Below are positions 5,699 to 19,099 of a stretch of DNA of 24,216 nucleotides, piece by piece. Source of the DNA: Anaerolineae bacterium (GTDB lineage Bacteria; Chloroflexota; Anaerolineae; Promineifilales; Promineifilaceae); the NCBI GenBank assembly GCA_028277515.1, contig JANQGC010000302.1, positions 1-24,216 on the forward strand, in the 5' to 3' direction. The notes under the pieces are model-generated. The model did no database searches. It saw only the letters and a program-made list of their open reading frames with translations, and was not told where the DNA came from. The stretch's first letter is position 1. Every line of letters begins with the position of its first letter. The translations under genes and the position numbers were made by a program.

Positions 5699-6655
5699 TC
5701 AAGCCAAAACCGTCGCCATCACCAGGTCCAGGAATCGCCGGTAATCGGCCTGGTAAGCCACCTGGATTTCAGGCAAGTGCGACCATTGAAAATGATGCCG
5801 GGTGTCCATAACCGTCATCCCTGACGTGAGCTTTCCTTTTGTTTCCACACCAACCCTGGCGCTTATGGTGGAAATGAGAGAAGGATCAATAACAGTCGCA
5901 ATGGCCATGGAGTCGATCAATACACTATATGATTCAAACCCGCGCCCGGTTACAAAACGGATCATCTGCAAGAGAAATTTCGCTTCCGGTCTCTTTGATT
6001 CTCTCAGTTTCACTAAATCCTGGTCAGAAAAATTCACATCAAAATGAGTGGCAACATCTAAACCTATGGCCGTCACTTTAACGCCGGATTGAAACACCAG
6101 ATCAGCCGCTTCCGGATCAACAAAAACATTCCATTCGCTTTGTGGATTATCTCCCGTAGCGTTGGAAGCAGCATATTTGTTGAACCCAAAAGCGCCGGCG
6201 ATGGCGATAATCTCTTTAACCATCGGCTTTATTTCCGGCGCTTTCATGAAAGCAAAAGCGATATTCGTCAAGGGACCCAGGGCGATAATGGCGATATTTC
6301 CAGCATTGGCCTGCACCGTTTCAATGATCAAATCAACTGCATGGTTGCTATCAAGTCCAATTTTGGGGTCTGGCAAGAAATTTTCTCCCTGCCCATCTTC
6401 ACCATGAGTGAACGGGTCCGCTGGCAGGTCGCGAACCAATGGTTTTTCTAACCCTTTTGCCACAGGAATATCCGTCGCCTGGAGCAACTCCAACGTTTTC
6501 AGGGCATTTTTACTGGTCAGGTCGACGGGATAATTTCCGGAGACGGTGGTGATCGCCTGGACCTTCAACTGCGCCGACTTGACGGTGAGGATGAGGGCCA
6601 ATGAATCATCCATGCCCGGATCGCAATCGATCAATATATTCTGTGCCTTCATCAT
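5699..6655 (-). CDS. Nucleoside hydrolase (inosine-uridine preferring family)
   Basis: A 318-residue cytoplasmic member of the IUNH family, which hydrolyses the N-glycosidic bond of ribonucleosides to base plus ribose. The Ca2+/ribose-binding signature DCDPGMDD is at residues 10-17. Further marks are IALGPLTNIA, the substrate loop SEWNVFVDPEAA and a late LDVATHF where the family usually has LDVTH. The start at 6655 is chosen because its ATG overlaps the stop of the preceding phosphorylase gene (ATGATGA), the classic sign of translational coupling; an upstream start at 6679 is possible but unlikely. It is the last gene of the leftward operon headed by the GntR regulator. The exact nucleoside cannot be read from the sequence. 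The substrate loop has Trp-Asn where many relatives have Phe-Asn. Confidence 0.92.
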   Translation of the reverse strand: MMKAQNILIDCDPGMDDSLALILTVKSAQLKVQAITTVSGNYPVDLTSKNALKTLELLQATDIPVAKGLEKPLVRDLPADPFTHGEDGQGENFLPDPKIGLDSNHAVDLIIETVQANAGNIAIIALGPLTNIAFAFMKAPEIKPMVKEIIAIAGAFGFNKYAASNATGDNPQSEWNVFVDPEAADLVFQSGVKVTAIGLDVATHFDVNFSDQDLVKLRESKRPEAKFLLQMIRFVTGRGFESYSVLIDSMAIATVIDPSLISTISARVGVETKGKLTSGMTVMDTRHHFQWSHLPEIQVAYQADYRRFLDLVMATVLA

Positions 6656-7572
6656 ACTGCGCCTAATGCCGGATACCAATGGTTTTTACCGGCTTTTGCC
6701 TTTTGCAAATCCATTTGGTTCAAGATAGCGCAGCCCTCTAAAGCAATGCGGATCGCCAAGTCATGTCCGGCGCCGCTGGTGAACGTCTCACCGGTCACGA
6801 TATTATCGGCCACGGAACAAACCGCGCCTCCCCTTCGGCCGAAAAGGGAGGACAGAGTAACAATGGCCGCCGATTCCCGGTCCCCATTCAAAACACCAGC
6901 CCGATTATAAATGCCCGGCTTGTCGATATTCCAGGGTTGCAGATAACCACCAACACCGGGACGGCCGCAGCCCACATAATCACTATCTCCGGACATGGTG
7001 ACGCCGACATGGTAAGGCGCAGCGATAGATTCGGCGGCCTGGATCATGGCCAAAACCAATTCAAAATGGCAGGCGGCAGGATACCCGGCGTCAATATACG
7101 CTTTTGTCATCGCTTCTTCACGAACGATGCCGCTGGCGATGACCACATCTCCCGGTTTTACTGTATCCCCAATGCCCCCCGATCCACCCACGCGGATAAA
7201 TGTGTTTGCGTCAGTATGCTCCATGTAATCATAGAGGATCAGTTCCATTTCCGGCGCTCCACTGCCACCACTAACGACGGTTATCGGCGCACCTTTATAG
7301 GTCCCGCTGTAGGAAGTAAACATGCCCGACTGGCCAATCAGTTCACTATCTTCCAATGAGCTTGCGATTTGGCTGGCCGGGTCTTGATCGTAAGCGCAGA
7401 GCGGATCGCGTACCGTTATTAATACAAAATCACCCACTTTAACGGGGTCAATTTGTGTCAGAGCAGGACGCCCTTCGATTTGTAGGCCCCGGTGCGGAAT
7501 GTTGTCCCAATACTCGTAATTATGATGAATATGCTGAATAGATGATTTCCGCCTGATCTGCTCGCTTTTCAT
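6652..7572 (-). CDS. Nucleoside phosphorylase, uridine-phosphorylase-like
   Basis: A 306-residue NP-1 family enzyme. The phosphate/ribose loop reads IRVGGSGGIGDTVKPGDVVIA, comparable to RVGTTGAI in uridine phosphorylase. It also has the segment HVGVTMSGDSDY and the late acidic loop NGDRESAAIVTL, where uridine phosphorylases usually have a Met-Glu-Ser ribose-binding motif. The Met is replaced by Arg, hinting at a changed sugar site. The reaction should be phosphorolysis of a nucleoside to base plus sugar-1-phosphate. I chose ATG 7572, which has GGATGAGG immediately upstream and lies four bases after the YjbQ stop; the longer reading to 7626 would overlap yjbQ. It overlaps the nucleoside hydrolase by four bases. 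Confidence 0.88.
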   Translation of the reverse strand: MKSEQIRRKSSIQHIHHNYEYWDNIPHRGLQIEGRPALTQIDPVKVGDFVLITVRDPLCAYDQDPASQIASSLEDSELIGQSGMFTSYSGTYKGAPITVVSGGSGAPEMELILYDYMEHTDANTFIRVGGSGGIGDTVKPGDVVIASGIVREEAMTKAYIDAGYPAACHFELVLAMIQAAESIAAPYHVGVTMSGDSDYVGCGRPGVGGYLQPWNIDKPGIYNRAGVLNGDRESAAIVTLSSLFGRRGGAVCSVADNIVTGETFTSGAGHDLAIRIALEGCAILNQMDLQKAKAGKNHWYPALGAV

Positions 7573-7576
7573 ATCC

Positions 7577-7981
7577 TCATCCCGCAATAACTTTAACAAA
7601 GAATTCCCTTGTTCTTGGCCCATCAAATTCTAAAAAATAAATGCCTTGCGAATGGCCTAATAGTAGTTGAGAATTTTCAACGATGAGGGTCAGCGTACTG
7701 CCAATAAAAGTCGATTTCACATGGCCGGCCGCATCTTGCGGTGTGTCATGTTGGTGCTTGAAATCAATGCGCGTGGGAATGACGCGGTTTAACTCATCTT
7801 GAATATCTTCCAGGCCATTGGGGTCCCAAAAAGAAGTAATGGTCAGCGCGGCCGTCGTATGGGGAACAAAAACAGTACAGAGACCACTCTCAATCCCGCT
7901 ATTGGCCACCGCTTCTTGCACCTGTTCACTGATATTAACGGCATCATTTTTCGCGGTCTTTAAAACAAAATTACTAAGCAT
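7577..7981 (-). CDS. yjbQ: YjbQ/UPF0047 family protein
   Basis: A 134-residue UPF0047 protein, essentially full length. Typical motifs are VFVPHTTAALTI, the central DAAGHVKSTFIGSTLTL, LLLGHSQGIYFLEFDGPR and the C-terminal REFFVKV. E. coli YjbQ can weakly replace thiamine-phosphate synthase, but the physiological reaction of the family is unsettled, so no specific activity is claimed. I chose ATG 7981: it overlaps the SIS gene stop (7974-7976) and has GAAGAGGG upstream. Its place inside a nucleoside/sugar operon is uncommon and may be a clue to the family's real substrate. Confidence 0.9.
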   Translation of the reverse strand: MLSNFVLKTAKNDAVNISEQVQEAVANSGIESGLCTVFVPHTTAALTITSFWDPNGLEDIQDELNRVIPTRIDFKHQHDTPQDAAGHVKSTFIGSTLTLIVENSQLLLGHSQGIYFLEFDGPRTREFFVKVIAG

Positions 7982-9134
7982 GCCGGCCCTCTTCAATGAT
8001 CATGATCTGGCTGTTTTTCACCGTACCTCCATTCTTACAGGCTCGCCAGTTGTCCCTGGCGCCTCTGCCATATTCTTCACCCACTAAAGCAGCAATATAG
8101 CCGCTCAACAAGGCCAGGGGCACAAAACTGGCGACAGGAGACATCCACGAACAACATGTCTCAGGAAAGCGCAGCACATGCGCCTGGCCGGAAAATATCT
8201 CCTTGTTAGCCGTCGTCAGAATGAGCAGGGGACGGCCGAGGCGAGCCATATGTTCCGCCACTTCCCACGCTCTGCTTAATGAAGCTGAATGTTTATCCAC
8301 GATCAACACCGTGCCCGTATTTTCCACATCCCGGACAAAGAAATTCAAATGCAGCCACTCCTCCGTATTGGCTAGCATGGCGTACCTTCCCGTGGCTTCA
8401 AACATCTTGGCCTGGCCATAAAAAGCGGAAGCGTAGTCGGGTCCTGCGCCGGCGAAATCAAATGCAGGCAAATCTTGCCATTCCTGGGCTACAGCAAACA
8501 TCTCCCGATCCATTTCGGGTAGGCTCTGCTTCAGCCGTGCGGGCAATTGCAACAGTTCTCGCCGGTGTAAATTTGCTTCATCCATCGTCATGCGCCCCAA
8601 CACTTCTCCCATTCGTATGGCCAGGAGCAGCAACGACAACAGGGAAACGAGATAAGACCTGACCCCAGGCCCGCTCTCAAAGCCGGGTATATCAAGCTCC
8701 AAAATCTTATCCGCCTCCTGGCCGAGTAGGGAAGCGGAATTGCCGGTGATGCCCACTGTCAACCCGCCATGAGCATTGACCCTTTTAACGGCCTCAAAAA
8801 CGCGCGCCACCTGGCCTGAATGACTGACGGCAATTAAAAAGGGCAGGTTGGGGACTGAACCTGGCCCAGGCAAAGCGCTGTGGCGTGAGAGTTCTACCGT
8901 GGGAACGACTTCTACGGGTATCTCAGTGAGTTGTTCAAAGGCTGAACGGGCAGCCAGGCAGGCGGCGAATGAATCGCCACATCCGGTCAGAGTGAGTCTC
9001 CTGAGTGAATATATTTCCGGTGTGCCCAGCAACTGACGCACTTTTGGTTCCAGGTCTTGATATTGGCCGGCCATCAGATCCGGCAAACTCCATATCTGCC
9101 TGGCCATCGGGTTGGAAAATTGATCGCGATTCAC
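7974..9134 (-). CDS. Double-SIS-domain sugar-phosphate isomerase/deaminase-like protein
   Basis: A 386-residue protein with two SIS domains (about 35-165 and 215-350), like the isomerase half of GlmS, AgaS or the fructosamine-6-phosphate deglycase FrlB, with no N-terminal glutaminase domain. Seen motifs include TGCGDSFAAC (49-58), AVSHSGQVARVFEA and a later EEWLHLNFF in the place of the family's E-x-x-HGP segment. The expected chemistry is aldose-ketose isomerisation or removal of an amine from a phosphosugar; the exact substrate cannot be read. The start codon is GTG at 9134, supported by AGGAG eight bases upstream; ATG 9107 is the alternative. It lies downstream of the MAK32-like kinase across an inserted repeat element and overlaps yjbQ. 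Confidence 0.85.
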   Translation of the reverse strand: MNRDQFSNPMARQIWSLPDLMAGQYQDLEPKVRQLLGTPEIYSLRRLTLTGCGDSFAACLAARSAFEQLTEIPVEVVPTVELSRHSALPGPGSVPNLPFLIAVSHSGQVARVFEAVKRVNAHGGLTVGITGNSASLLGQEADKILELDIPGFESGPGVRSYLVSLLSLLLLAIRMGEVLGRMTMDEANLHRRELLQLPARLKQSLPEMDREMFAVAQEWQDLPAFDFAGAGPDYASAFYGQAKMFEATGRYAMLANTEEWLHLNFFVRDVENTGTVLIVDKHSASLSRAWEVAEHMARLGRPLLILTTANKEIFSGQAHVLRFPETCCSWMSPVASFVPLALLSGYIAALVGEEYGRGARDNWRACKNGGTVKNSQIMIIEEGRHA

Positions 9135-9151
9135 TATTGTAACTCCTGGTA

Positions 9152-9274
9152 TCCCAACACTTTAACAACGAGAAGATTAATTGGACGTTGATTCACACTG
9201 ATGACGCTGAATTTCTCATGTTATCAGCGTAAATCCGCTCTTGTCCGCATCCTATTTCTAATTTCTAAACTGTC
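9152..9274 (-). repeat. Degenerate copy A of a ~120-bp inverted-repeat element
   Basis: This gap carries CCCAACACTTTAACAACGAG, then AGAAGATTAATTGGACG, then GATGACGCTGAATTT, and ends in TTTCTAAACTGTC. The same blocks occur in the same order on the opposite strand at 16845-16963. It has several indels and mismatches compared with that copy. It separates the MAK32-like gene from the SIS gene, and its last bases touch the MAK32-like stop. Confidence 0.8.
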
Positions 9275-10202
9275 AAGTAGTTAGTTGTAACTCCAAACAT
9301 CTCGCATATTGTTGCGCTGCCAGATTTTCGGCCGCCTGGCGCTGCGCTCGATTCAGTACGGGTGGTGGTCCATATTGGGCAATCGAATAAGCGGCGGAAA
9401 TACTGCCCATAATCCCTGCCATCAAGGCATCCTTGCCCTCGCAAAAACCAATTAAAACCGCGCCGGAAGAGCTATTTCCGCCGCCGGTGGGATCAACGAC
9501 CTGGATATTTTCAATACTGGGAATATGCAGCACCCGTTTCCCGGCAATCATCATAGCCCCCTCCGCGCCCATCCGTAAATAGACCAGCGGCAGTTGCAAG
9601 GTTTCCAGTTGTGCGATGGCGGTCTGCAAGTCATTTGTCGAAAACAAATGAAAGGCCTCTTGCCGGTTAATTGAAAACAGATCGACCTTTTTCAAGATGC
9701 CCCGCACAGTGTCCAATGCAGCAGGTGTTGCTGAATCCGCCGCAATCTCCCACATAAGCGAAAAGCCATGCCGTTCCTTCAAGCGCAATAAGGGCTGCCA
9801 AAAATCCGGATCGCTGTTTCTAAACACATAAACACCCCGCGCGTGGGAGCAGTGCCGGGCCACATCGGCCGCCGTCGGCTTAATCAAATGATAATGGGTA
9901 AATCCAAAAACCGGGGTCTCTTGCCGTTCTCCGTCGTCAAAATATTGGATCTTGTTACGGGGCGTCTGTTGGCAAACGACGCGCAACCCGGCAGTAGAAA
10001 GCCCGTTTTGCGCAAACCAGGAACCGTGAACCTGGTGAAAATCCGCGCCAATCCCGCTGACGATCTTGACCTCATCACACCACACTTTCATGCCGGCCAG
10101 GGCGTAAATGCCCGCCCCGCCTAGAATTGGGTGTTGAGCGCTTCCATCCGGGAGAATAATTTCATCGGTCACGGCCGTTGAGACGGTAAGGTAGTGGCTC
10201 AT
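9273..10202 (-). CDS. PfkB-family protein of the MAK32 type with Asn in place of the catalytic Asp
   Basis: A 309-residue PfkB fold protein. The N-terminal GGAGIYALAG (28-37) is the sugar-binding Gly pair, and the C-terminal anion-hole motif reads DPTGGGNSSSG (237-247). In active ribokinases this motif is DTxGAGD, and its Asp is the catalytic base. Here it is Asn243 (codon AAT read directly). The same GGGN pattern is typical of the yeast MAK32-like subgroup, so it is a subfamily trait rather than a random mutation. It may be a kinase with altered chemistry or a binding protein. It follows the first ARH gene by 27 bases in the same operon. No strong ribosome-binding site precedes the ATG. Confidence 0.87.
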   Translation of the reverse strand: MSHYLTVSTAVTDEIILPDGSAQHPILGGAGIYALAGMKVWCDEVKIVSGIGADFHQVHGSWFAQNGLSTAGLRVVCQQTPRNKIQYFDDGERQETPVFGFTHYHLIKPTAADVARHCSHARGVYVFRNSDPDFWQPLLRLKERHGFSLMWEIAADSATPAALDTVRGILKKVDLFSINRQEAFHLFSTNDLQTAIAQLETLQLPLVYLRMGAEGAMMIAGKRVLHIPSIENIQVVDPTGGGNSSSGAVLIGFCEGKDALMAGIMGSISAAYSIAQYGPPPVLNRAQRQAAENLAAQQYARCLELQLTT

Positions 10203-10229
10203 TTCATTTGCGCTTTCATTCCTGCCCGC

Positions 10230-11285
10230 CTATGCCTCTATATGCGACTCTTCCGTAACAGCTTCGGCAATCTCTTGTCCCCACCATGCGGCCGCAGCAT
10301 CAAGGTCATTGGCAAGCCCGGCCAGGTTTAATTGATTCACATCCTCGATTTCATCGATCCAGGAAGTGGGAAATTTTTCCGCCCCGGCATAAGCTCCTGC
10401 TAAAGCGCCGGCCATTGAAGCCACCGTATCACAATCGCCCCCCATATTGGCCGCGGCCAGGAGCGTACGTTGGGGGTCCCCTGCGCCGGCCAGGAAAAGG
10501 CCGATGGCCGCCGGCACGGATTGTTCCGTCTCCACACCCGCTCCAACCAACTGGTATATCTCGCTTGCAGCCGATTCTAAGTCAGGGCAATTATTGACGA
10601 TATCGACAACCAGGTCAATTCGTCGCGCAATAGAAGGACCAATAACCGGAAATCCCGTTTGTTCACCGCGAACAGCCCCCGCTCTTGCCGCAGCGACGAC
10701 ATCCTGTATATGGCCCTCATTGAGGGCGCGAGCAATGCCGCAGGCCAGGGCGCTGGCGCCGCTGATGGCCAGGGTAGAACCATGCGTCGGCATACAAACA
10801 AGATGGACATCGCGGATGATGGCCTCCGTATTTGCAAAATTGTTGGCGCGCAAGATGCCAATAGGTGAAATGCGCATCGCCGCTCCGTTGGTATGGCCTC
10901 GTTGTCCGGCAATTTCCAGTGGTTTGCCAGCGCGAATAGCAGTCAATGCCGCCATACTGCTCGGACCCACGGCCGCGGAATCTACGCCGCCCACCTGGTC
11001 GAACCAATCGAGAAGAGAGAGGGCGATTTTCTGTGGGTCCGCCTTCCGGCTCTCTAAAAGCGTTCGCGCGATAAAGACAGTTTGCTCGGTGTCGTCGGTG
11101 ATACGGCCTGCCCGATAACCGGCATGGTAAATGTGGTCAACCGGCCCTGCTTCAAACCCGTTGATACGCCCAAAGCGTGCCCGAATCACCTGGGGCGGCA
11201 TAAAGGAGGTCGGCATGCCTAACGCATCTCCAATGGCTACTCCCAACAAACAACCTAAAATTCGACCTTGTCGTTTAACTGTCAT
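10230..11285 (-). CDS. ADP-ribosylglycohydrolase family protein (DraG/ARH type)
   Basis: A 351-residue all-helical ARH-family hydrolase. The two metal-binding signatures are present: TDDTEQT (63-69) and GGDCDTVASMAG (282-293). The family removes ADP-ribose from proteins or small acceptors by hydrolysing an N- or O-glycosidic bond at the ribose C1, using two Mg2+ or Mn2+ ions. Many bacterial members have unknown small-molecule targets. I chose ATG 11285, whose ATGA overlaps the stop of the upstream kinase; the reading to 11360 adds 25 residues inside that gene and is rejected. The setting, between two PfkB genes in a regulated sugar/nucleoside operon, argues for a catabolic small-molecule role rather than reversal of protein ADP-ribosylation. 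Confidence 0.92.
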   Translation of the reverse strand: MTVKRQGRILGCLLGVAIGDALGMPTSFMPPQVIRARFGRINGFEAGPVDHIYHAGYRAGRITDDTEQTVFIARTLLESRKADPQKIALSLLDWFDQVGGVDSAAVGPSSMAALTAIRAGKPLEIAGQRGHTNGAAMRISPIGILRANNFANTEAIIRDVHLVCMPTHGSTLAISGASALACGIARALNEGHIQDVVAAARAGAVRGEQTGFPVIGPSIARRIDLVVDIVNNCPDLESAASEIYQLVGAGVETEQSVPAAIGLFLAGAGDPQRTLLAAANMGGDCDTVASMAGALAGAYAGAEKFPTSWIDEIEDVNQLNLAGLANDLDAAAAWWGQEIAEAVTEESHIEA

Positions 11286-12241
11286 ATCAATCTCACTTTT
11301 TCTATTTGAGGGACCAATCCCGGAGATAGCCGACGTGCGCGCTCGACGATAGCCGGCCAATCAGGCAAATTCGTTTGACATCCCAGCGCTTCCACAACCA
11401 TGCTTCCGGATAACACACCGATTCGCGCGGCATCCACCGGATCCAATCCCTTGCGCATAGCCGCAAGCGTCGCGGCGAAAAAGGCATCTCCGGCCCCTGT
11501 TGTATCAACGACCCGTCGCGGCGGCACCGCCCCGATATGCGCCAACTGCTGCCCTTTATGGTAAACAGAACATCCTTCAGCACCCTGAGTAATAAACAAA
11601 TACCCGGCCATTCTCTGGCTCAGCGTTGCAGGATTTAAGCCCCCTTCAATTTTGGATAGCAGGCCCATTTCATACTCATTTATGGACAGCATAGCCATCT
11701 GCGGCAACCAGGTCAGAAGTTCCGGTTCAGCAATCCCACATGAGGCAAGGGGAATTCCCTCATTTTGGGCAAATGTGTGCGCCTGTTGGTGCAATGGACC
11801 GCTTAAAGGGGTCAAGACAACTAGGTCAATATCCTTTAGAGCGGCTGCCGAAATTTGCGCATCTGTTAATTCTGTGAGGGATGTGAAGCACATGGTCGAG
11901 CCATCGGCTGCGCCAAAGACATAAGCTACACCGCTCGGCCGCTGGTTATTGATCAATAGGCCGTCTAATAATACCCCGACCTCAGCAAGCGTTTGTTCGT
12001 AATCAGAGCCGGCAAAGTCTCGGCCGACAGGGTGGGTGAGTCGAGCGCGCTCATTCAGTTTAGCCAGGCCCAACGCAATGTTGAAAGCGCTGCCCCCTGG
12101 AAAGCGCTGCCCTTGAAGTTGGTCCGCCTGGGGTAAGATGCGCGCCGTTCGCCCAGGTTCAGGCAAGCGATCCACACAAAAAATATAATCGTAGACAATC
12201 GTTGCCCCGACAACCAGTACGAGGTTTTTAAGTTCCGTCAT
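11282..12241 (-). CDS. PfkB-family carbohydrate/nucleoside kinase
   Basis: A 319-residue ribokinase-fold kinase with intact active-site motifs: PGGSAFNIALGLAKL (48-62) for sugar binding, PVGRDFAGSDY (71-81), and DTTGAGDAFFAATL (246-259) containing the catalytic base Asp252. The late segment GCQTNLPDW resembles the adenosine/nucleoside kinase branch of the family more than the fructokinase branch. It should phosphorylate a ribose-like sugar or nucleoside at the expense of ATP. The gene follows the GntR regulator across a gap with three hairpins and overlaps the ARH gene by ATGA. No clear ribosome-binding site precedes its ATG. Confidence 0.88.
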   Translation of the reverse strand: MTELKNLVLVVGATIVYDYIFCVDRLPEPGRTARILPQADQLQGQRFPGGSAFNIALGLAKLNERARLTHPVGRDFAGSDYEQTLAEVGVLLDGLLINNQRPSGVAYVFGAADGSTMCFTSLTELTDAQISAAALKDIDLVVLTPLSGPLHQQAHTFAQNEGIPLASCGIAEPELLTWLPQMAMLSINEYEMGLLSKIEGGLNPATLSQRMAGYLFITQGAEGCSVYHKGQQLAHIGAVPPRRVVDTTGAGDAFFAATLAAMRKGLDPVDAARIGVLSGSMVVEALGCQTNLPDWPAIVERARRLSPGLVPQIEKVRLI

Positions 12242-12350: not shown

Positions 12351-13142
12351 TCACTTTTCTCCTTTGGCTAAAGAGGATTCATCGCGCAAGGTCATGACAA
12401 AATCGCGACTATTGATTTGCAATCGCAGCTTATCGCCACGCCACCAGGATCGGCTGAATTCAACCGGCGTATCATCGGGCAGGTGGGATATGGTTGTCAT
12501 TAGCAGCAAAGGGGAACCTTCAGGAACCTGTAAGAGGGCCGCCTCCTTTGCTGTGGCAATGGTCGGTTCAACCCATTCAACCCCTTTGCTGGGCAGCAAA
12601 TGGTAAACCTCTACCAGCGTTTGAATGAGTGAATCCCCTATTAATCGGATCTCAGTCAGGCCGGGCACGACTTCTTCAGGCAGCCAGGATTGGTTGATGG
12701 CCATCGGCAGGTCATCCGCAAAGCGCAAACGCTCCAGGTGCACCATCGACTGATCCTGGTCGAGTTGCAGCAGTTTTCTCCCCCAATCCGGAATGGATGT
12801 CGTCACGCCCTTAGTGATCATAACCGACGACGACTTATAACCCTGGGCAGAAAATAAAGCGGTAAGGCTGGGCGGAAACGCCAGGTTTGCAGAGACAACA
12901 TCGGCGCGATCGGTGACATAAGTACCGACACCGCGCTTCCGTTCAATCAAATCATCTTTTTCAAGTTCTTCCAACGCCTGGCGAATGGTCAGGCGTGCCA
13001 CCCCAAATTGTTCAGCCAACTTCGGCTCAGAGGGCAACTGCCCACCGAGTTGAATCTGCCCGGAACGGATCAAATTTGCGATGTTGTGTTTGATTTGCAG
13101 ATATAGGGGGATGGAACTTTCTTGTAGAATTTGTTCTTTCAT
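12351..13142 (-). CDS. GntR-family (HutC subfamily) transcriptional regulator
   Basis: A 263-residue regulator with an N-terminal winged helix (about 10-75; PLYLQIKHNIANLI, LPSEPKLAEQFGVARLTIRQAL, RGVGTYV) and a C-terminal UTRA ligand-binding domain (about 95-255). HutC-type regulators usually sense a small molecule, often a phosphosugar or pathway intermediate, and repress the genes beside them. It is divergent from the ABC importer genes and first in the leftward operon, so it very likely controls both arms through dyads in the 243-base intergenic region. The ATG at 13142 is preceded by AGGAAAGG. Its effector should be an intermediate of the pathway encoded around it. Confidence 0.94.
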   Translation of the reverse strand: MKEQILQESSIPLYLQIKHNIANLIRSGQIQLGGQLPSEPKLAEQFGVARLTIRQALEELEKDDLIERKRGVGTYVTDRADVVSANLAFPPSLTALFSAQGYKSSSVMITKGVTTSIPDWGRKLLQLDQDQSMVHLERLRFADDLPMAINQSWLPEEVVPGLTEIRLIGDSLIQTLVEVYHLLPSKGVEWVEPTIATAKEAALLQVPEGSPLLLMTTISHLPDDTPVEFSRSWWRGDKLRLQINSRDFVMTLRDESSLAKGEK

Positions 13143-13156
13143 AATCTGAGCCTTTC

Positions 13157-13184
13157 CTGTATATTTGTATAGTCAAGTATATAT
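13157..13184. promoter_or_regulatory. Putative operator near the regulator start
   Basis: This AT-rich stretch contains TTGTATAGTCAAGTATA. On the minus strand it reads ACTTGACTATACAAAT, an imperfect dyad using the same half-sites (ACTTG and TATACAA) as the operator candidate at 13258-13281. It lies 15-42 bases upstream of the GntR start codon, suitable for autoregulation. Supported only by resemblance to the second site. Confidence 0.4.
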
Positions 13185-13242
13185 CCTAAACATAAAATGT
13201 CAATCTTTACTTGCAAAACCACGGTTCAATTACCCAATTTTA

Positions 13243-13286
13243 TTGACAAACCTGTTTACTTGTACTAACATGTATACAAGTATAAT
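13243..13286 (+). promoter_or_regulatory. Promoter with overlapping operator for the ABC importer operon
   Basis: A perfect TTGACA (13243-13248) is followed after 17 bases by TAACAT (13266-13271), a plausible sigma-70-type promoter; a TATAAT at 13281-13286 is a second possible -10. The dyad ACTTGTA...TACAAGT (13258-13264 and 13275-13281) covers the -10 region and contains the 14-base near-palindrome ACATGTATACAAGT with TGTATACA at its centre, the general shape of GntR/HutC operators. Binding of the divergent regulator here would block transcription. Confidence 0.6.
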
Positions 13287-13385
13287 CGTTGAAGGAGAAT
13301 ATGTAAATAGGATTTTCAGTTTTCCGGTGACGCGAATATGCAAATGATGCATTTTTTTAGTTCTTTATCATAAGGAGAGATAGAA

Positions 13386-14846
13386 ATGAAACAAAAAGGG
13401 TTGTCTATTATTGTGGCTCTATTATTGATGGTGGTGGCTTTTGCCGGCTGTAGCCCACAAAGTGCACCGCCTGAATCCGAGGCCGACAGTGAATCGGCTG
13501 CATCGGACGGAGACGGCGCTGCCGAAGAAGCGGATGCGCCTGCGGCCGCAGAGGATGCGGCTTCGGCAGAGGGAGATGAGGAGCGTCAACTGCTCACCAT
13601 GTGGTTCTGGGGTGCGGAACCCAAACATCAGGAAACATTAGTGGATGTTCTGGCCGGCGGATATAATGCCTCGCAAGATGAGTATACTCTGGAAATTGAG
13701 TTCAGAAACACCGTTGATAAGGATGTACCTGTGGCGCTGGCCGCCGGCGAAGGGCCGGATATCGTTTATGCCTCCGGTCCGGCGTTCACCGCGCCCTATG
13801 TAGAGGCTGAACGGGTGGTTTCCCTGGATGACTATTCTGAACAATATGGGTGGGAAGAGAAGGTGCTGCCAATTCTTTACCAGGCTTCGACGGTAAATGA
13901 TTCCTTATATTCCATACCCAATTCGCTCAGTGTCGGCGGCATTTATTATAGCAAATCCGTGCTTGATGAATTAGGCTATGATGTACCTGAGACTATCGAA
14001 GAAGTGGAAGAAATTATGGACGCGGCAATGGCGCAAGGCATGTATGGTTCGGTTGGCGGCAATAAAGGTTGGCGTCCGGTCAATGACAATTATATGGCCA
14101 ATTATCTGAACGCCTTTGCCAATCCGATTGATGTCTACAATGCCTTAACTGGCGAAACGGAATGGAATAACCCCCGAATCAAAGCGGCCGTCGAAAAATC
14201 GGCCGAATGGTATCAAAAAGGATACATGGCCGGCGACGAATATACCAGCCAGAACGCTGTAGATGCTTTCCAATTAATGGCTGACGGCCGTTCCCCATTT
14301 TTCTTCGGCCCCTCACTGTTATTCCAGTTTGCCGAGGCCTTCTTTACCGGCGAAAAAGCGGACGATCTCGGCTTCATCCCCATGCCCTCCATCGATCCCA
14401 ACCAGCCAGGTCCGGTTTATTCCGTTTCCACCCCGGCCACATTTTCCATTAATGCCGGTTCCGAGCATCAAGACGCAGCGGCCGAGGTACTAGACATGAT
14501 CCTAACCGAACAATTTCTTGTCGATATGACCGAGCGTTGGCCCGGTTACTGGGGCGTTCCGTTAAGAGGTATTGACGTCAATCCGGATGAATTTGCAGGT
14601 CTCTCCAAAACCTTCCTGGAAGTTGTGGCCGAATCCTCCGGGGCCATTGATGCCGGCCAGTTTGGTTTCCATCCTACAACCTTCTTCCCGCCGGCCACAC
14701 AAGAAAAATGGCGCGATATTGACAGCGTGTGGCTTGGCTCCATCTCGGCCGATGAGTTATTGACCGCGGTGGACCAGGAATTTGATGAAGAATTGGAAAA
14801 AGGATTGGTCAGTCCTTTGCTCAAACCGGCCGAACCAGCTCAGTAA
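13386..14846 (+). CDS. ABC importer extracellular solute-binding lipoprotein (family 1)
   Basis: A 486-residue predicted lipoprotein: signal peptide, lipobox AFAGC with Cys at residue 22, an acidic Ser/Ala/Glu linker (about 25-65), then a family-1 solute-binding domain like those of sugar importers. Typical traits are MWFWGAEPKHQETL at its start, LAAGEGPDIVYA, and a C-terminal AAAEVLDMILTEQF. It should capture the substrate outside the cell and deliver it to the two permeases that follow. AAGGAGA lies a few bases upstream of the ATG. The ligand cannot be read from the sequence; sugar, sugar amine or nucleoside-like compounds are all possible for this class, and the operon partners favour an N-glycoside. 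Confidence 0.92.
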   Translation: MKQKGLSIIVALLLMVVAFAGCSPQSAPPESEADSESAASDGDGAAEEADAPAAAEDAASAEGDEERQLLTMWFWGAEPKHQETLVDVLAGGYNASQDEYTLEIEFRNTVDKDVPVALAAGEGPDIVYASGPAFTAPYVEAERVVSLDDYSEQYGWEEKVLPILYQASTVNDSLYSIPNSLSVGGIYYSKSVLDELGYDVPETIEEVEEIMDAAMAQGMYGSVGGNKGWRPVNDNYMANYLNAFANPIDVYNALTGETEWNNPRIKAAVEKSAEWYQKGYMAGDEYTSQNAVDAFQLMADGRSPFFFGPSLLFQFAEAFFTGEKADDLGFIPMPSIDPNQPGPVYSVSTPATFSINAGSEHQDAAAEVLDMILTEQFLVDMTERWPGYWGVPLRGIDVNPDEFAGLSKTFLEVVAESSGAIDAGQFGFHPTTFFPPATQEKWRDIDSVWLGSISADELLTAVDQEFDEELEKGLVSPLLKPAEPAQ

Positions 14847-15025: not shown

Positions 15026-15045
15026 TTAAAGGGATCAGGACACCT

Positions 15046-15990
15046 ATGGCTACGATTGAGAATAGCACAGGATTAAGCGCAAGGCTGCGCAACTTTATAA
15101 GTGGCAAGGAACGAAATACCACCAGGCGCAGCAGCAAATTGGCCTATTATTTGCTGAGCGCGCCGGCTCTGATTTTAAGTCTGTCCATCATTTTTATCCC
15201 CTTCTTGCTCACCATTTTCACCGCATTCACTGATTGGAACGGCATATCTCCCCGATTTAATTGGGTGGGCGTTGAGAACTTTCAAGATATAGCGGCCGAC
15301 AGGATCTTCTGGTTATCCGTCACTAACAACATCAAGTGGACGTTGTTATTCATCACCATCCCCGTCGCCGTCGGATTGCTGGCCGCCGTCCTTTTGTTCA
15401 CCCTGAAAAGAGGCAGAACATTCTACCAAATCGCTTTTCTGATTCCCTTTATCCTGGCTCCTGTGACCAACGCCATCCTCTGGCTCAACATTATTTTCAG
15501 CCCCACATCCGGTTTAATCGGTTACTTAAAAAAAATCGGCTTTGAAATTTCCGTGCCGCTGAGCAATACCAGAACCGCGCTTTTCGCGGTGGCCGGGGTA
15601 GACATGTGGCATTATTGGGGTTTCCTCACCGTCATCTATCTCGCCGCTTTAAGGCAAACGCCAAAGGAACAAATCGAAGCCGGCATTATCGAAGGGGCTT
15701 CGGGTTATCAACTGTTTAGATATATCTACCTGCCCAACATCAAGCCCACCTTGCAGTTGATGTTTGTGATCATTATCATCTACTCCTTTCTAACATTCGA
15801 TTATATCTATCTCATCACCTGGGGCGGTCCGGCGCACTCGACAGAGATGCTGAGCACCTACGCCTACTCCTTTGCTTTCTCCATGTTCCAGGTGGGGAAG
15901 GCGGCGGCCGTCTCCCTGGTGATGGGCTTGTTTGGGGCAGTTTCGGCTTTCCTATATATCTGGCTCAGCAGAAAAGACATCATGGAGTAA
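15046..15990 (+). CDS. Sugar-type ABC transporter permease (UgpA/MalF class)
   Basis: A 314-residue membrane protein with about six membrane segments; the first (about 34-56, YYLLSAPALILSLSIIFIPFLL) follows a basic cytoplasmic N-terminus. The EAA loop that contacts the ATPase is seen as EAGIIEGASGYQLFRYIYLPNIKP. I chose ATG 15046, preceded by TCAGGA. An in-frame GTG at 15007 lies inside a hairpin and is unlikely. It forms a heterodimer with the next permease. No ATPase gene is present in the operon, so the pair presumably uses a shared MsmK/UgpC-type ATPase encoded elsewhere, as is common for this importer class. Confidence 0.92.
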   Translation: MATIENSTGLSARLRNFISGKERNTTRRSSKLAYYLLSAPALILSLSIIFIPFLLTIFTAFTDWNGISPRFNWVGVENFQDIAADRIFWLSVTNNIKWTLLFITIPVAVGLLAAVLLFTLKRGRTFYQIAFLIPFILAPVTNAILWLNIIFSPTSGLIGYLKKIGFEISVPLSNTRTALFAVAGVDMWHYWGFLTVIYLAALRQTPKEQIEAGIIEGASGYQLFRYIYLPNIKPTLQLMFVIIIIYSFLTFDYIYLITWGGPAHSTEMLSTYAYSFAFSMFQVGKAAAVSLVMGLFGAVSAFLYIWLSRKDIME

Positions 15991-15997
15991 GAAAAAA

Positions 15998-16837
15998 ATG
16001 CAAAGTATGCGACGCAGAGAACTCACCTTTCAGACCATCACCCACATCGTCCTGATCACCCTGGCCTTAACCGCCTTAGTGCCCATCCTGTTGGTATTCA
16101 TTAACAGCTTTAAGCCCCACGCCGAAATCGTGCGCAATCCGCTCGCTTTGCCTGCCCAGATAACCTTCGTCAATTTCGTCGATGGCTGGCAGGCCGGCAA
16201 CTTTTCAACCGGTTTTATTAACAGCGTTATTTTGTCCGGCACGGCCGTTATCGTCTCTGTGACCGCATCTTCATTTCTCGGCTATGTTCTGGCCGGCCGG
16301 AAGATCAGAGAATACAAGCTCATCATGGCCTACTTTTTAATTGCCATGACCGTGCCCATTCAATTATTCCTGTTCCCTCTTTACATCGTTTTCGCCAGGT
16401 TGGACTTAATAGGCAATCTTGTGGCCATCGGCTTTGTCCTGGCCGCATTAAATCTGCCGCTCGCCGTTTTATTAATGCGCACGTTTTTCCTGAAAGTGCC
16501 CCTTGAACTGGAAGAAGCGGCCAGGATCGACGGCGCCAGCACCTGGCAGGTCTTGCGCCATATCATGCTGCCCATCGTCTCACCAGGGCTGATCACCGTG
16601 GCCATCATCGTCGGCCTTTATTCCTGGAATGAATTTTTGATCACCTCGACCTTTATTTCCGGCGAGAAAAATTTCACAGCGACCTTGGGGTTCTTGTCCA
16701 TGAACGGCACCTATACCTCAAACCAGGGACCGCTCATGGCCGGAGCCATGATCATGATCGTCCCGGTCATCATATTCTTCTTGATTATGCAAAAGTATTT
16801 TATTGATGGTTTATCAAGCGGCGCAGTAAAAGGTTAA
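15998..16837 (+). CDS. Sugar-type ABC transporter permease (UgpE/MalG class)
   Basis: A 279-residue membrane protein with about six membrane segments and the EAA loop EEAARIDGASTWQVLRHIMLPIVSPG. The ending YFIDGLSSGAVKG is the characteristic C-terminus of MalG/UgpE-type permeases. The ATG at 15998 is chosen from the GGAG ten bases upstream that overlaps the end of the preceding permease gene; the extended frame from 15932 runs inside that gene and is rejected. It lies seven bases after the first permease and is clearly co-transcribed with it. Confidence 0.93.
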   Translation: MQSMRRRELTFQTITHIVLITLALTALVPILLVFINSFKPHAEIVRNPLALPAQITFVNFVDGWQAGNFSTGFINSVILSGTAVIVSVTASSFLGYVLAGRKIREYKLIMAYFLIAMTVPIQLFLFPLYIVFARLDLIGNLVAIGFVLAALNLPLAVLLMRTFFLKVPLELEEAARIDGASTWQVLRHIMLPIVSPGLITVAIIVGLYSWNEFLITSTFISGEKNFTATLGFLSMNGTYTSNQGPLMAGAMIMIVPVIIFFLIMQKYFIDGLSSGAVKG

Positions 16838-16844
16838 CAAGCTA

Positions 16845-16963: not shown

Positions 16964-16981
16964 TCACTAGAAAGGATAAAA

Positions 16982-19099
16982 ATGAACTTAGAAAAATATT
17001 ACGAAAAAATCTACGCCGGTGTTCTCGGCAAAATTATCGGCGTTTACCTGGGACGGCCGGTGGAAGGCTGGTCTTACGACGCCATCCGCAACACCTTTGG
17101 CACGGTTGACTATTATGTCAGCCATGAAGTGGGCGCTCCGTTAATCATTCCCGATGATGATATTTCAGGAACCTTCGTGTTTTACCGGGCCTTGGCAGAC
17201 AACGGATCGCCGCCTGACATCACTCCCGAACAAATCGGAGAAACCTGGCTCAACTATATTATCGAAAACAAAACCATCCTCTGGTGGGGTGGGTTATCCA
17301 GGTCCACGGAGCATTCCGCCTACGTACAGCTAAAAAATGGCATTAAACCCCCTTTGAGCGGCTCAATTGCCCTCAACGGCCGTTCCATCGCCGAACAGAT
17401 CGGCGCTCAAATATTCATTGATACCTGGGCCATGGCCAATCCGGGCGATCCCGCCCTGGCCGTAGAAATGGCCCGTAAAGCGGCCTGTGTCAGCCACGAT
17501 GGCATCGCCGTTGATGCCGCCTGTTACCTGGCGGCAATGGAAGCGCTCGCCTTTGACGAACAAGACCTGGATACCATCTTGCAGGAGGCGCTGGCCTACA
17601 ATGAAAACCCCCAATTGCAATTTCTCGTCCAAAGCGTCATCGATCGCTGCGACCGGGCGAGTCATTGGCGGCAGGTGCGTGATTGGATCGAAGAGCATCA
17701 CAGTTACGCCGTTTATCGCGGAAACTGCCCGATGGTCACGAATCACCTGTCCGTGATTATGGCGCTCAAAATGGGGGGTGATGATTTTCATAAGAGTATA
17801 TCCATTGCCACATCGGCCGGTTGGGACACCGATTGCAATGCCGGCAATGTGGGCTGCCTGAATGCCATCAGACTTGGTCTTGATGCGATCAACGCGGGAC
17901 CCGACTTGCGCGGTCCGATTGCCGACCGCATGTTTGTGGTCAGCTCTGATGGCGGATCATGCGTAACCGACGCCGTCCAGGAGACGCGAAAAATAATTAA
18001 AGTGGCCGAAGAACTACGCGGCCGTGCGGCAAGCATTCCGCGCCAGAAATATGCCTTTGAGTTCCCCGATTCAACCCAGGGATTTATGCTGCATCCCGAT
18101 TACGGCTTTGTCCAGGCGATTAAATCATTAAGCAATGCCCTTGAGGTGGACGGCCAACCGGGCTTATGTCTGGAATACGTCGCCCTGGCCCGCGGCGTCA
18201 AAGGGGCAATTGCCGTACAAACCTATTCCGACCCGCAGCCCAAAGCGGCCAAAGACACCAGCTACTTTGAAGTGGAAGCCAGCCCCTCACTTTACCCCAC
18301 CCAAACCGTTAAAGCGGTATTTGCATCCGCCCAGGATAAAAATCCTTCGATAAAATTTTTCATTGATTATTACGATGAAAAAGATGAAATATCGACCATT
18401 GCCGGGGAACCTATGGCCATTAATCGGGGTGAAACCGTATGCCAATGGGACGTTCCTGATACCGGGGGACGGCCGGTATATCGTTTAGGCATGCAACTGT
18501 TATCCGCTGAACGGCTGGACGGCCGCCTGACCTTAAGAAGTCTGGATTGGCCAGGCGCGCCCCGACATTTTCACATGGGGAAATCCTACGAACTGACCCC
18601 CGGCATCTCCCCGTTTGTCACCAACACAAAATGGCTGTCTTCCTTCATGTCCTCAGCCTTGAATTTTCACCCGGATTACCTGGCCACCTTCTCGCTTTCC
18701 CATCCTGAACAAAACGGGGTTGTCACCATTGGTTCCCAGGAGTGGGATAATTACTACGTGGAGTCGCGTATAGAATTCGTACACCAGCAATCCGCGGGAT
18801 TAGTCGCCCGCTCATGTGGCCATCGACGTTATTACGCGGCCGTACTCAAAAACGGCCAGGCGGCCATCATCAAACGCAAAGATGGCGAAGTCATCGACCT
18901 AGCCGCCGCCGGCCTTGACTATGCAGATGATGCTGTTTTTGATGTTAAATTTGAAGTGCACAACAACCATCTGGCCATGTACTTGGACGGCCAGGCAATT
19001 ATCAGCGCCGAGGACAGTGAATACCCGACCGGCGCCGCCGGATACGTCGTCGACACAGGCGCCATTGTTTGCGATGGATTTACAGTGGGTCGTTGCTGA
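16982..19099 (+). CDS. ADP-ribosylglycohydrolase-like enzyme fused to a C-terminal LamG-like beta-sandwich
   Basis: A 705-residue protein, about twice the usual ARH length. Residues 1-345 form an ARH-type helical domain: YAGVLGKIIGVYLGRPVEG (11-29), the first metal motif PDDDISGT (57-64) and the second motif GWDTDCNAGNVG (280-291). Residues about 365-545 look like a beta-rich middle domain, and about 555-705 (WDNYYVESRIEF through AMYLDGQ and GFTVG) resemble a concanavalin/LamG or DUF1080-like sandwich that usually binds sugars. No signal peptide is seen, so it should act in the cytoplasm on imported material. AAAGGATAAAA precedes the ATG. As the last gene of the importer operon it probably performs the first hydrolytic step. 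The exact glycoside is unknown. Confidence 0.88.
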   Translation: MNLEKYYEKIYAGVLGKIIGVYLGRPVEGWSYDAIRNTFGTVDYYVSHEVGAPLIIPDDDISGTFVFYRALADNGSPPDITPEQIGETWLNYIIENKTILWWGGLSRSTEHSAYVQLKNGIKPPLSGSIALNGRSIAEQIGAQIFIDTWAMANPGDPALAVEMARKAACVSHDGIAVDAACYLAAMEALAFDEQDLDTILQEALAYNENPQLQFLVQSVIDRCDRASHWRQVRDWIEEHHSYAVYRGNCPMVTNHLSVIMALKMGGDDFHKSISIATSAGWDTDCNAGNVGCLNAIRLGLDAINAGPDLRGPIADRMFVVSSDGGSCVTDAVQETRKIIKVAEELRGRAASIPRQKYAFEFPDSTQGFMLHPDYGFVQAIKSLSNALEVDGQPGLCLEYVALARGVKGAIAVQTYSDPQPKAAKDTSYFEVEASPSLYPTQTVKAVFASAQDKNPSIKFFIDYYDEKDEISTIAGEPMAINRGETVCQWDVPDTGGRPVYRLGMQLLSAERLDGRLTLRSLDWPGAPRHFHMGKSYELTPGISPFVTNTKWLSSFMSSALNFHPDYLATFSLSHPEQNGVVTIGSQEWDNYYVESRIEFVHQQSAGLVARSCGHRRYYAAVLKNGQAAIIKRKDGEVIDLAAAGLDYADDAVFDVKFEVHNNHLAMYLDGQAIISAEDSEYPTGAAGYVVDTGAIVCDGFTVGRC

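Follow-up and report, generated by a model that had tools for sequence, protein, structure and literature searches.

A conserved bacterial gene cassette that joins ADP-ribosylglycohydrolase-family proteins to nucleoside-splitting enzymes, with a possible role in N-riboside breakdown

Introduction

Proteins of the ADP-ribosylglycohydrolase (ARH) family are familiar chiefly for erasing ADP-ribosylation, and finding two of them in an import locus raises the question of what such a locus takes up and degrades. The window considered here is a stretch of 24,216 nucleotides from an Anaerolineae bacterium (Chloroflexota). A preliminary description of it proposed an undescribed locus under a single GntR regulator, which would import an N-glycosylated molecule, split it and feed the sugar into central metabolism. 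Gene families, co-occurrence in other genomes, catalytic motifs and the divergent gene arrangement were computed in order to follow up this proposal.

Layout of the locus

All twelve genes that had been named are present between positions 5699 and 19099, where they form two divergent operons that include the gene of a GntR-UTRA regulator, and each assignment was borne out by Pfam: IU_nuc_hydro (E 2.2e-80), PNP_UDP_1, UPF0047/YjbQ, SIS, PfkB twice, ADP_ribosyl_GH twice, GntR with UTRA, SBP_bac_1 and BPD_transp_1 twice. The features are as follows.

5699..6655, minus strand: IUNH, nucleoside hydrolase (Pfam, 271 bits; start taken as the ATG at 6655)
6652..7572, minus strand: PNP2, uridine-phosphorylase-like, with an altered phosphate site (Pfam PNP_UDP_1, 84 bits; start taken as the ATG at 7572)
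7577..7981, minus strand: YjbQ (UPF0047) (Pfam UPF0047; NCBIfam TIGR00149, above cut-off)
7974..9134, minus strand: SIS protein, a relative of the GlmS isomerase half (Pfam SIS; PDB matches)
9273..10202, minus strand: PfkB2, PfkB-fold protein with GxGN replacing GxGD (Pfam PfkB, 66.6 bits)
10230..11285, minus strand: ARH1, ADP-ribosylglycohydrolase family, YegU-like (Pfam, 226.5 bits; start taken as the ATG at 11285)
11282..12241, minus strand: PfkB1, ribokinase-like kinase with intact GAGD (Pfam PfkB, 141 bits)
12351..13142, minus strand: GntR-UTRA transcriptional regulator (Pfam GntR and UTRA)
13143..13385, no strand: predicted divergent promoter/operator region, containing two repeats of 17 bp
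13386..14846, plus strand: SBP, family-1 solute-binding protein of CUT1 type (lipobox-like FAGC close to the N terminus)
15046..15990, plus strand: Perm1, ABC permease 1 (Pfam BPD_transp_1; start taken as the ATG at 15046)
15998..16837, plus strand: Perm2, ABC permease 2 (Pfam BPD_transp_1; start taken as the ATG at 15998)
16982..19099, plus strand: ARH2, 705 aa, ARH domain and CBM66-like C-terminal domain (Pfam ADP_ribosyl_GH, 166 bits)

Overlaps, said to link many of these genes, occur at three of ten junctions: PfkB1/ARH1 and PNP2/IUNH (4 bp each) and SIS/YjbQ (8 bp, with the ATG start of YjbQ inside the end of the SIS gene). The remaining junctions are gaps, either short (YjbQ/PNP2, 4 bp; Perm1/Perm2, 7 bp; ARH1/PfkB2, 27 bp) or longer (GntR/PfkB1, 109 bp; PfkB2/SIS, 138 bp; Perm2/ARH2, 144 bp; SBP/Perm1, 199 bp). 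The ABC importer has a binding protein and two permeases but no ATPase gene in the cluster. Its type is CUT1 (sugar), and CUT1 importers usually carry sugars. By profile the binding protein is nearest to oligosaccharide binders; monosaccharide and oligosaccharide binders tie on its model, which makes a large ligand at best a possibility.

Recurrence of the cassette

The preliminary description was to count as refuted if the genes failed to co-occur in other genomes. Seventy-nine loci with ARH2 were found, 15 of them in the same ARH2 cluster as the window and 64 outside it. Within the cluster, ARH2 is accompanied by PfkB2 and IUNH at 11 of 15 loci each, by YjbQ at 10, and by SIS and PNP2 at nine each; outside it, PfkB2, YjbQ, SIS and PNP2 are found at none of the 64 loci and IUNH at two. 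The gene set is found together in distant bacteria, and this recurrence argues against a chance assembly: the cassette is real and conserved across distant bacterial groups. In another Chloroflexota genome it occurs without ARH1 and PfkB1.

A matching ABC permease is found in 56 of the 79 loci. Even outside the cluster, ARH2 often lies beside the same kind of importer (Perm2 at 42/64 loci, SBP at 31/64), an association that suggests the imported compound itself as the substrate of ARH2. For example, loci in Rhizobium and an enterobacterium (L028 and L053) carry the run LacI-SBP-permease-permease-ARH2-ATPase; within the run, to which annotation was confined, LacI and the ATPase are the sole additions to ARH2 and the importer.

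A second line of association comes from PNP2. Searching with this gene gave 15 places within a single order; an ARH gene lies nearby at 10 of them, eight of which are of a different operon type. This second operon type, from the order of Mesorhizobium, combines PNP2, PfkB and ARH with an importer and has ARH at 8 of 11 such places. In addition, six PfkB2-PNP2 fusion proteins of about 603 aa occur among the 120 relatives listed. Accessory genes beside the cassette elsewhere encode the phosphopentomutase DeoB, DeoD or PunA, a nucleoside deoxyribosyltransferase-like protein, adenosine deaminase, ribokinase and a second IUNH. Most belong to nucleoside and ribose breakdown, and phosphopentomutase, DeoD/PunA, adenosine deaminase and ribokinase point to N-ribosides.

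The association is not uniform. Three loci lack PNP2 (L003, L010, L013), two have PfkB2-SIS-YjbQ-PNP2 with no ARH within 19 kb (L122, L123), and two have the second operon type without ARH (L124, L132). Checking for shared contigs gave a positive result for the pairs ARH2/SIS and ARH2/PNP2, but not for PNP2/SIS. Relatives of PfkB2 (E <= 1e-40) are not confined to the cassette: PfkB2 as query led to five new places, and one of these is the cassette.

Catalytic residues

Both ARH proteins match the profile of family PF03747 (226.5 bits for ARH1 and 166.3 for ARH2; cut-off 26.2). ARH enzymes bind metal through a TDD motif near the N terminus and a GxDTD motif near the C terminus. ARH1 keeps both (TDDT, GGDCDT); ARH2 has PDDD and GWDTDC, with the Thr of the first motif replaced. 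Of the 15 cassette-cluster members, the 14 that were read all have Pro before DD. Second ARH2 copies have Ala or Pro at this position, 21/21 sequences from three further clusters have Thr, and a fourth cluster is mixed. The N-terminal domain model of ARH2 matches ARH3, whose specificity is alpha-ribosyl, and the C-terminal domain matches CBM66 by both profile and model. Relatives of ARH2 are numerous, with 7306 at E <= 0.001 among 7998 candidates scored.

In the case of the two PfkB proteins, both match the family, but only PfkB1 keeps the catalytic Asp, and to speak of two kinases is unsafe. PfkB1 combines a PfkB profile match with a GxGD motif (TGAGD); its best NCBIfam models are ribokinase and ribose-1-phosphate kinase, both under cut-off. 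PfkB2 scores 66.6 bits against a cut-off of 25.8. It lacks the GxGD Asp found in RbsK, PsuK, YegV, FrlD and PfkB1, having GGGN instead, and Asn stands there in 11/11 aligned sequences (the window and 10 others) and in two distant paralogues. This replacement makes a kinase role for PfkB2 doubtful.

PNP2 had been taken for a nucleoside phosphorylase, a role that is similarly weakened. Compared with E. coli Udp it keeps R91 and E198 and loses R30, R48 and T94. We take R30, R48, R91 and T94 to be the phosphate-binding residues of Udp, and since three of these four are missing, PNP2 may not be a phosphorylase. PNP2 does not fit a true uridine phosphorylase: only R91 of the four is retained, and the match to NCBIfam TIGR01718 is 141.6 bits against a cut-off of 280.3. 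IUNH carries the DxDxxxDD motif, and its best NCBIfam model is the pyrimidine-specific RihA (231 bits against a cut-off of 433). The signs of the base type conflict: those enzymes that IUNH and PNP2 resemble most act on pyrimidines (RihA, uridine phosphorylase), those that the accessory genes resemble most on purines.

The "double-SIS" protein shows one SIS domain by Pfam, but its residues 39-353 align to the isomerase half of GlmS, which has two; its top PDB matches are GlmS/GFAT (E 4e-27). Equivalents of GlmS K485, E488, H504, S347 and S349 are kept, and those of S347, S349, E488 and H504 are present in 9/9 SIS sequences. Presumably S347/S349 form the phosphate loop and E488/H504 the Glu/His acid-base pair of phosphosugar isomerase or deglycase SIS enzymes. 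The position of the Schiff-base lysine K603 is not conserved and Pfam found no glutaminase domain, which speaks against a GlmS-type aminotransferase. With the Glu/His pair kept and K603 absent, the protein looks like a phosphosugar isomerase or deglycase, and ribose would suit it no better than hexose or aminosugar chemistry.

The divergent promoter region

Two similar 17-bp repeats lie between the operons at 13158-13174 and 13271-13287 (TGTATAYWWGTATARTC), with promoter-like -10 hexamers at their edges (13176-13181, minus strand; 13266-13271, plus strand). Allowing two mismatches, the pattern TATACWARTATA has six matches in the window against 1.9 expected, and at least six were seen in 1 of 100 shuffles, a comparison that is partly circular because the pattern was derived from the repeats. 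Five of the six matches fall within 13143..13385, at three places read on both strands. The repeats fit the claim of a single regulator, but a classic palindrome test of the region (TTGTATACAA, one mismatch) gave one match, which is not significant. Promoter-like sites over 5300-19500 show no excess (14, against 14.9 in shuffles). The region is compatible with one regulator for both operons.

A proposed pathway and its rivals

The reading we favour, tentatively and at a little under an even chance, is that the cassette serves the regulated breakdown of an N-riboside which exceeds a plain nucleoside in size or oddity, and which would be either a nucleoside with a second sugar or a ribosylamine. 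We infer the substrate, the order of reactions, the roles of YjbQ and PfkB2 and the regulation from the genes described above. The N-riboside would enter through the CUT1-type importer, which would draw on an ATPase whose gene lies elsewhere. ARH2, aided by ARH1, may then cut a ribose C1 bond inaccessible to ordinary nucleoside hydrolases, most likely an alpha-ribosyl bond, and the remaining nucleoside would be split by IUNH and PNP2. PfkB1 would phosphorylate the freed sugar, and the SIS protein would isomerise or deglycate a phosphosugar intermediate into the pentose or hexose phosphate pool. GntR would repress both operons until a phosphosugar or the substrate occupies its UTRA domain. Counting for such a cassette are its recurrence, the ARH2-importer association, the fusions, the accessory genes, the second operon type, the SBP profile and the ARH3 match; counting against it are the loci lacking PNP2 or ARH, PfkB2 outside the cassette, the tie on the SBP model, the base-type conflict, the fit of the SIS protein to hexose or aminosugar chemistry, the sugar habit of CUT1 importers and the shared-contig result for PNP2/SIS. 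The original N-glycoside proposal is borne out in part: co-occurrence and the mostly nucleoside/ribose type of the accessory genes hold up, but the two kinases and the phosphorylase are in doubt. The ligand itself may be a nucleoside, a product of ADP-ribose, a glycosylamine or a plain sugar.

Other substrates can be considered. Import of a fructosamine (Amadori compound), with PfkB phosphorylation, an SIS deglycase and a GntR regulator as in frl loci, and with the extra nucleoside genes serving a glycated nucleoside or amine, would account for a GntR-UTRA protein, an ATPase-less importer, a PfkB protein and a deglycase-like SIS protein, the gene content of Bacillus frl. The Glu/His pair is shared with E. 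coli FrlB and K603 is missing in both; the SIS profile matches include 3eua (E 1.6e-7), whose depositors describe it as a putative fructose-aminoacid-6-phosphate deglycase, and one relative is labelled FrlB-like by its source. Nevertheless, the SIS protein is far closer to GlmS/GFAT, the FrlB model of NCBIfam gives no match to it, and FrlB has Thr in place of K485. The 41-bit match of PfkB1 to the fructoselysine kinase model is far under the cut-off of 247, and IUNH, PNP2, DeoB, adenosine deaminase and two ARH genes are left unexplained, making a fructosamine unlikely.

General scavenging, in which the locus takes in ordinary ribonucleosides for cleavage by a set of base-specific glycosidases and ARH, SIS and YjbQ do side jobs, we also regard as improbable. 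IUNH, the PNP-like protein and, elsewhere, DeoD/PunA, DeoB, RbsK and ADA would fit, and so would a binding-protein model that matches small-sugar and oligosaccharide binders equally. However, plain nucleosides need neither two ARH proteins nor an SIS enzyme, DeoB has no match within the window, and the importer is CUT1 rather than the Bmp/BPD_transp_2 type, an example of which adjoins a PfkB2 paralogue at another locus (L092). Similarly improbable is plain O-glycoside catabolism, with ARH2 merely a glycoside hydrolase and the nucleoside genes neighbours of convenience. The L028 and L053 runs do lack the cassette's nucleoside genes, and among the remaining 62 loci outside the cluster the sole exception is IUNH, at two of them; the binding protein is nearest to sugar binders and ARH2 ends in a CBM66-like lectin domain. 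Yet the nucleoside genes are conserved across phyla in the window's ARH2 cluster, and PNP2 is tied to ARH in the second operon type.

Relation to known systems

One of the closest known systems is E. coli yegTUV-yegW (ggaR), which includes a putative nucleoside transporter (YegT). Three of its four parts have counterparts in the window: YegU (38% identity to ARH1), YegV (24% to PfkB1) and YegW/GgaR (25% to GntR over 237 aa). In contrast, YegT is a single-protein transporter, not an ABC system, and SIS, YjbQ, IUNH, PNP-like and ARH2-type genes are absent. The resemblance makes ARH, PfkB and GntR alone a known, uncharacterised arrangement; our literature search found no description of the cassette.

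In frl operons an SIS deglycase and a PfkB kinase, to which the window's SIS protein and PfkB1 are related, stand with a GntR-type FrlR, and the Bacillus version has a family-1 ABC importer without an ATPase; E. coli frl has no counterpart of IUNH, PNP-like, ARH or YjbQ, and the window's SIS protein resembles GlmS more than FrlB. Nucleoside salvage operons (deo, rih and bmp types) share IUNH and the PNP superfamily and, in relatives of the cassette, DeoB, DeoD/PunA, ribokinase and adenosine deaminase, but not the CUT1 importer, two ARH proteins, SIS, YjbQ and a PfkB with GxGN. Pseudouridine psuKG pairs a PfkB kinase with a glycosidase, and fused forms exist. PfkB2-PNP2 recalls this coupling to a base-releasing enzyme, although PsuK keeps the Asp that PfkB2 lacks and Pfam found no PsuG family match in the cassette. 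With the ADP-ribosylhydrolases of the ARH3, ARH1 and DraG kind, the window's ARH proteins have in common the fold and the two metal motifs, apart from the replaced Thr in ARH2; they differ in lying within an import operon and in the CBM66-like domain of ARH2.

ARH and nucleoside-splitting enzymes are tied together here in a conserved cassette with a natural fusion protein and two operon types, which gives a direct handle on the role of these ARH proteins; E. coli YegU is another that is unassigned. The cassette predicts a small ligand set for the binding protein, and ideas on two orphan families can be tried out on it, namely YjbQ and those PfkB-fold proteins that carry GxGN.

A more specific proposal, which we regard as a long shot, is that the cassette degrades ribosylamine-type nucleosides (ribose on an exocyclic amine), for instance ring-opened formamidopyrimidine purine ribosides. 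We know of no salvage pathway of this kind for damaged purines, which is what the cassette would then provide. The alpha and beta forms of such ribosides interconvert, and they can rearrange to ketosamines. The alpha form might go to ARH, the beta form to IUNH or PNP2, and the rearranged ketosamine phosphate to PfkB, YjbQ and SIS, with formamide-type enzymes handling the base. The window has neither a creatininase-family nor a 5-formyltetrahydrofolate cyclo-ligase-like gene; among relatives, the second operon type has the former at 10 of its 11 places, and the latter shares a locus with SIS, YjbQ and PNP2 in L001, L099, L122 and L123.

Gene content and layout of the cassette

The gene set claimed for positions 5699 to 19099 in the preliminary description was borne out: the cassette comprises 12 genes in two divergent operons, with families confirmed by Pfam and compared with NCBIfam.

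Operons of the cassette (Pfam families)
Within 5699-19099, minus strand: GntR-UTRA regulator (GntR), PfkB protein with an intact GxGD motif (PfkB1), ADP-ribosylglycohydrolase-family protein (ARH1), PfkB-fold protein with GxGN (PfkB2), protein akin to the isomerase half of GlmS (SIS), UPF0047 protein (YjbQ), uridine-phosphorylase-like protein (PNP2), nucleoside hydrolase (IUNH)
Within 5699-19099, plus strand: family-1 solute-binding protein (SBP), two ABC permeases (Perm1, Perm2), ADP-ribosylglycohydrolase-family protein with a CBM66-like C-terminal domain (ARH2)

Overlaps of 4 bp join PfkB1 to ARH1 and PNP2 to IUNH, and one of 8 bp joins SIS to YjbQ. No importer ATPase gene lies within the cluster; at one related locus (L014), an ABC ATPase with a TOBE domain adjoins the operon. 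One repeat of about 130 bp occurs in two copies, 78 to 86% alike, one in the gap ahead of SIS (9130-9261) and one in that ahead of ARH2 (16854-16986), both oriented alike with respect to the gene that follows. The GntR-PfkB1 gap contains a pair of closely spaced perfect hairpins (12251-12272 and 12276-12297), each with arms of 10 bp, which are a possible attenuator or terminator.

Recurrence in other genomes

Scanning genome contigs with an alignment of 24 ARH2 proteins gave 561 relatives, from which 79 distinct loci were kept and grouped by ORF similarity clustering, not by a tree. A gene counted as present at a tblastn score of at least 80 bits. The cluster with the best ARH2 matches contains 15 loci (L001-L015; ARH2 identity 50-63%), where SBP was found at 12, Perm1 at 13, Perm2 at 14, PfkB2 at 11, PNP2 at 9, SIS at 9, YjbQ at 10 and IUNH at 11, all of them lower bounds because several of these contigs are short. 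For instance, SIS and PfkB2 of L009 lie just past the fetched flank (L096). By contrast, the 64 loci outside this cluster have SBP at 31, Perm1 at 37, Perm2 at 42 and IUNH at 2, while PfkB2, PNP2, SIS and YjbQ were each found at 0/64 by the same search. These counts argue against chance neighbours, and the proposal that the genes belong together held in other genomes, both here and with PfkB2 and PNP2 as queries.

The cassette-specific genes were found in Clostridia, Peribacillus, the actinobacteria Georgenia and a Microbacteriaceae bin, and Mesorhizobium. Among the carriers, Peribacillus loiseleuriae and Anaerobium acetethylicum can be cultured. Three loci (L006, L011, L012) share the order SBP-Perm1-Perm2-ARH2-ARH2b-PfkB2-PNP2-SIS-YjbQ-IUNH, ARH2b being a second ARH2 copy, and L010 and L013 have the same order without PNP2. 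A second ARH2 is present at 11 of the 15 loci and a LacI-cluster gene at 8; GntR, PfkB1 and ARH1 occur together as in the window only at L001. Shorter LacI-SBP-permease-permease-ARH2-ATPase runs, without the remaining cassette genes, are found in an enterobacterium and in Rhizobium (L028, 5873-13228; L053, 5860-13193), and offer a simple setting for learning what ARH2 cleaves.

Searches with PfkB2 and PNP2 mostly scored five or six candidates per genome, and their counts may be too low. At E <= 1e-40, PfkB2 was found in 2/391 genomes of the class of G001 and 3/400 of the phylum of G005 (Anaerolinea thermolimosa, hence Chloroflexota). Most matches were distant paralogues without the cassette, and five places were new (L090-L094). 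L091 carries GntR, SIS, YjbQ, SBP, both permeases, two ARH2, PfkB2, PNP2, IUNH and a deoxyribosyltransferase-like gene, without ARH1 or PfkB1. In the same genome, L092 (6110-18406) has a GxGN PfkB2 paralogue with two SIS proteins, a BtpA protein and a Bmp-type importer; BtpA also occurs at L090, with another importer. At L093 and L094 there was no match to SIS, YjbQ, PNP2, IUNH or ARH. The PfkB2 paralogue of L090 (8803-13315) sits between two proteins of 384 and 435 aa without a Pfam match, which a NADAR-DarT1 antitoxin-type protein adjoins.

In the order of G004 (Mesorhizobium), PNP2 was found at 15 places in 13/377 genomes. The full cassette is present at two of them (L095, in the genome of L014, and L121), and two others (L122, L123) combine SBP, permeases, PfkB2, SIS, YjbQ and PNP2 with a 5-FCL-like gene and have no ARH within 19 kb. 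The other 11 (L124-L134) are a different operon, with a PotD-like SBP, two permeases, PNP2, ATPase, PfkB, ARH and creatininase (for example L130, 5820-13404, in the order of Mesorhizobium); here ARH was found at 8/11 and creatininase at 10/11, the contig of L133 being only 8.3 kb. ARH thus lies near PNP2 at 10 of the 15 places. PNP2 was found in 0/398 genomes of the class of G002 and 0/392 of the order of G001, zeros that say little because the searches had no positive control, the centre genomes themselves being without a match. Against plasmids, the second-type PNP2 had no match and the window PNP2 one record. The Rhizobium leguminosarum plasmid pRL1 (L099) carries SIS, YjbQ, PNP2, PfkB2, IUNH and a 5-FCL-like gene, with IUNH and the ATPase each matching in two pieces.

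Shared contigs, equated by identical size, were counted among the best 120 listed relatives of each protein. ARH2 and SIS share 13 (control mean 0.47, largest 3), ARH2 and PNP2 share 6 including the window itself (mean 0.28, largest 2), and PNP2 and SIS share 2, not above control (mean 0.61, largest 3). Six fusions of PfkB and PNP domains, of about 603 aa, are among the best 120 listed PNP2 relatives. All three that were inspected have GGGN, and in the two compared the PfkB part is PfkB2 (46-47% identity over 288 aa). This fusion would tie PfkB2 and PNP2 to neighbouring steps.

Active sites

Residue comparisons rest on our own alignments to E. coli enzymes, whose residue numbers and roles serve as the reference. 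In 9/9 sequences, SIS keeps the phosphate-loop serines, K485, E488 and H504 of GlmS and lacks K603; FrlB has E488 and H504 in common with SIS and likewise lacks K603. This pattern predicts that SIS is catalytically active on phosphosugars, as an isomerase, deaminase or deglycase rather than an aminotransferase. PfkB1 has the normal catalytic Asp motif, and in PfkB2 Asn replaces this Asp in every aligned relative. Compared with Udp, PNP2 keeps R91 and E198 and is without R30, R48 and T94. The activities of PfkB2 and PNP2 may therefore differ from their family names. ARH1 has both canonical metal motifs. For ARH2, the motif is PDDD in 14/15 members of the cassette cluster (one not read), ADDD in 7/8 and PDDD in 1/8 of the second copies, and TDDD in 21/21 members of three other clusters; a fourth (c17) has three ADDD and one TDDD, with two not read.

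Proposed pathway and alternatives

Genes found beside the cassette at related loci
DeoB: L006, L010, L013
DeoD: L010
PunA: L013
Nucleoside 2-deoxyribosyltransferase-like protein: L001, L006, L010-L013, L091
Ribokinase (above NCBIfam cut-off): L003
Adenosine deaminase: L008
Second IUNH: L015
5-FCL-like protein: L001

These accessory genes mostly serve purine nucleoside and ribose breakdown; DeoB, the deoxyribosyltransferase-like protein and the 5-FCL-like protein had no match in the window. The nearest NCBIfam families, RihA for IUNH and uridine phosphorylase for PNP2, both far below their cut-offs, would speak against a purine reading, and the evidence on base type conflicts. Our best reading, held tentatively and at a little under an even chance, is that the cassette takes up and breaks down an N-riboside closed to ordinary nucleoside enzymes. 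Candidate substrates are a ribosylamine and a nucleoside that carries an extra ribosyl or other glycosyl group. ARH would open the special bond, IUNH or PNP2 the common one, PfkB1 would phosphorylate and SIS would convert the phosphosugar; PfkB2 and YjbQ have no firm role. We do not rate this reading higher because of the conflict over base type and because the SBP model matches monosaccharide binders as well as it does oligosaccharide binders.

A fructosamine pathway is unlikely, plain nucleoside scavenging equally so, and plain glycoside catabolism slightly less probable again; each of the three leaves certain conserved genes unaccounted for. N-riboside-type catabolism, the earlier suggestion, is favoured in kind more than in any particular substrate, and PfkB2 and PNP2 are atypical. 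A defence role for ARH was set aside on the catabolic setting, as was thiamine salvage, hinted at by the family name of YjbQ and the 5-FCL-like gene, with no other thiamine gene among the annotated genes.

The E. coli yegTUV-yegW genes have ARH, PfkB and GntR in common with the cassette but a different transporter. GgaR (YegW) is the subject of PMC10819704. No description of the cassette appears in the titles and abstract openings surveyed, in a library without bioRxiv preprints and most subscription papers.

Regulation and neighbouring genes

Two 17-bp repeats, 76% alike, lie in the 243-bp region between the divergent operons. The pattern TATACWARTATA, derived from these repeats themselves, has 6 matches in the window at up to 2 mismatches against 1.9 expected, a number reached in 1/100 shuffles; 5 of the 6 lie in the divergent region, where they fall on three sites, both strands being counted. 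A palindrome test of this operator region, with the pattern TTGTATACAA, showed no significant enrichment. On each strand, the second hexamer of the best promoter-like site lies at the border of one repeat (13176-13181; 13266-13271); across the region as a whole, such sites are no commoner than in shuffled sequence. Repeats and hexamers together would fit control of both operons by one GntR repressor. Neither the window nor 12 related loci had an Rfam match at the gathering score, and RNA hence gave no ligand hint.

Outside the cassette, another PNP-superfamily protein is encoded at 159-944. The genes at 1050-4700 encode a ZrgA-family protein containing a long repeat rich in His, Asp and Glu (DNA repeat at 4375-4592), an ABC ATPase, an FtsX/MacB permease and a DUF3299 protein, and are perhaps a metal transport operon.
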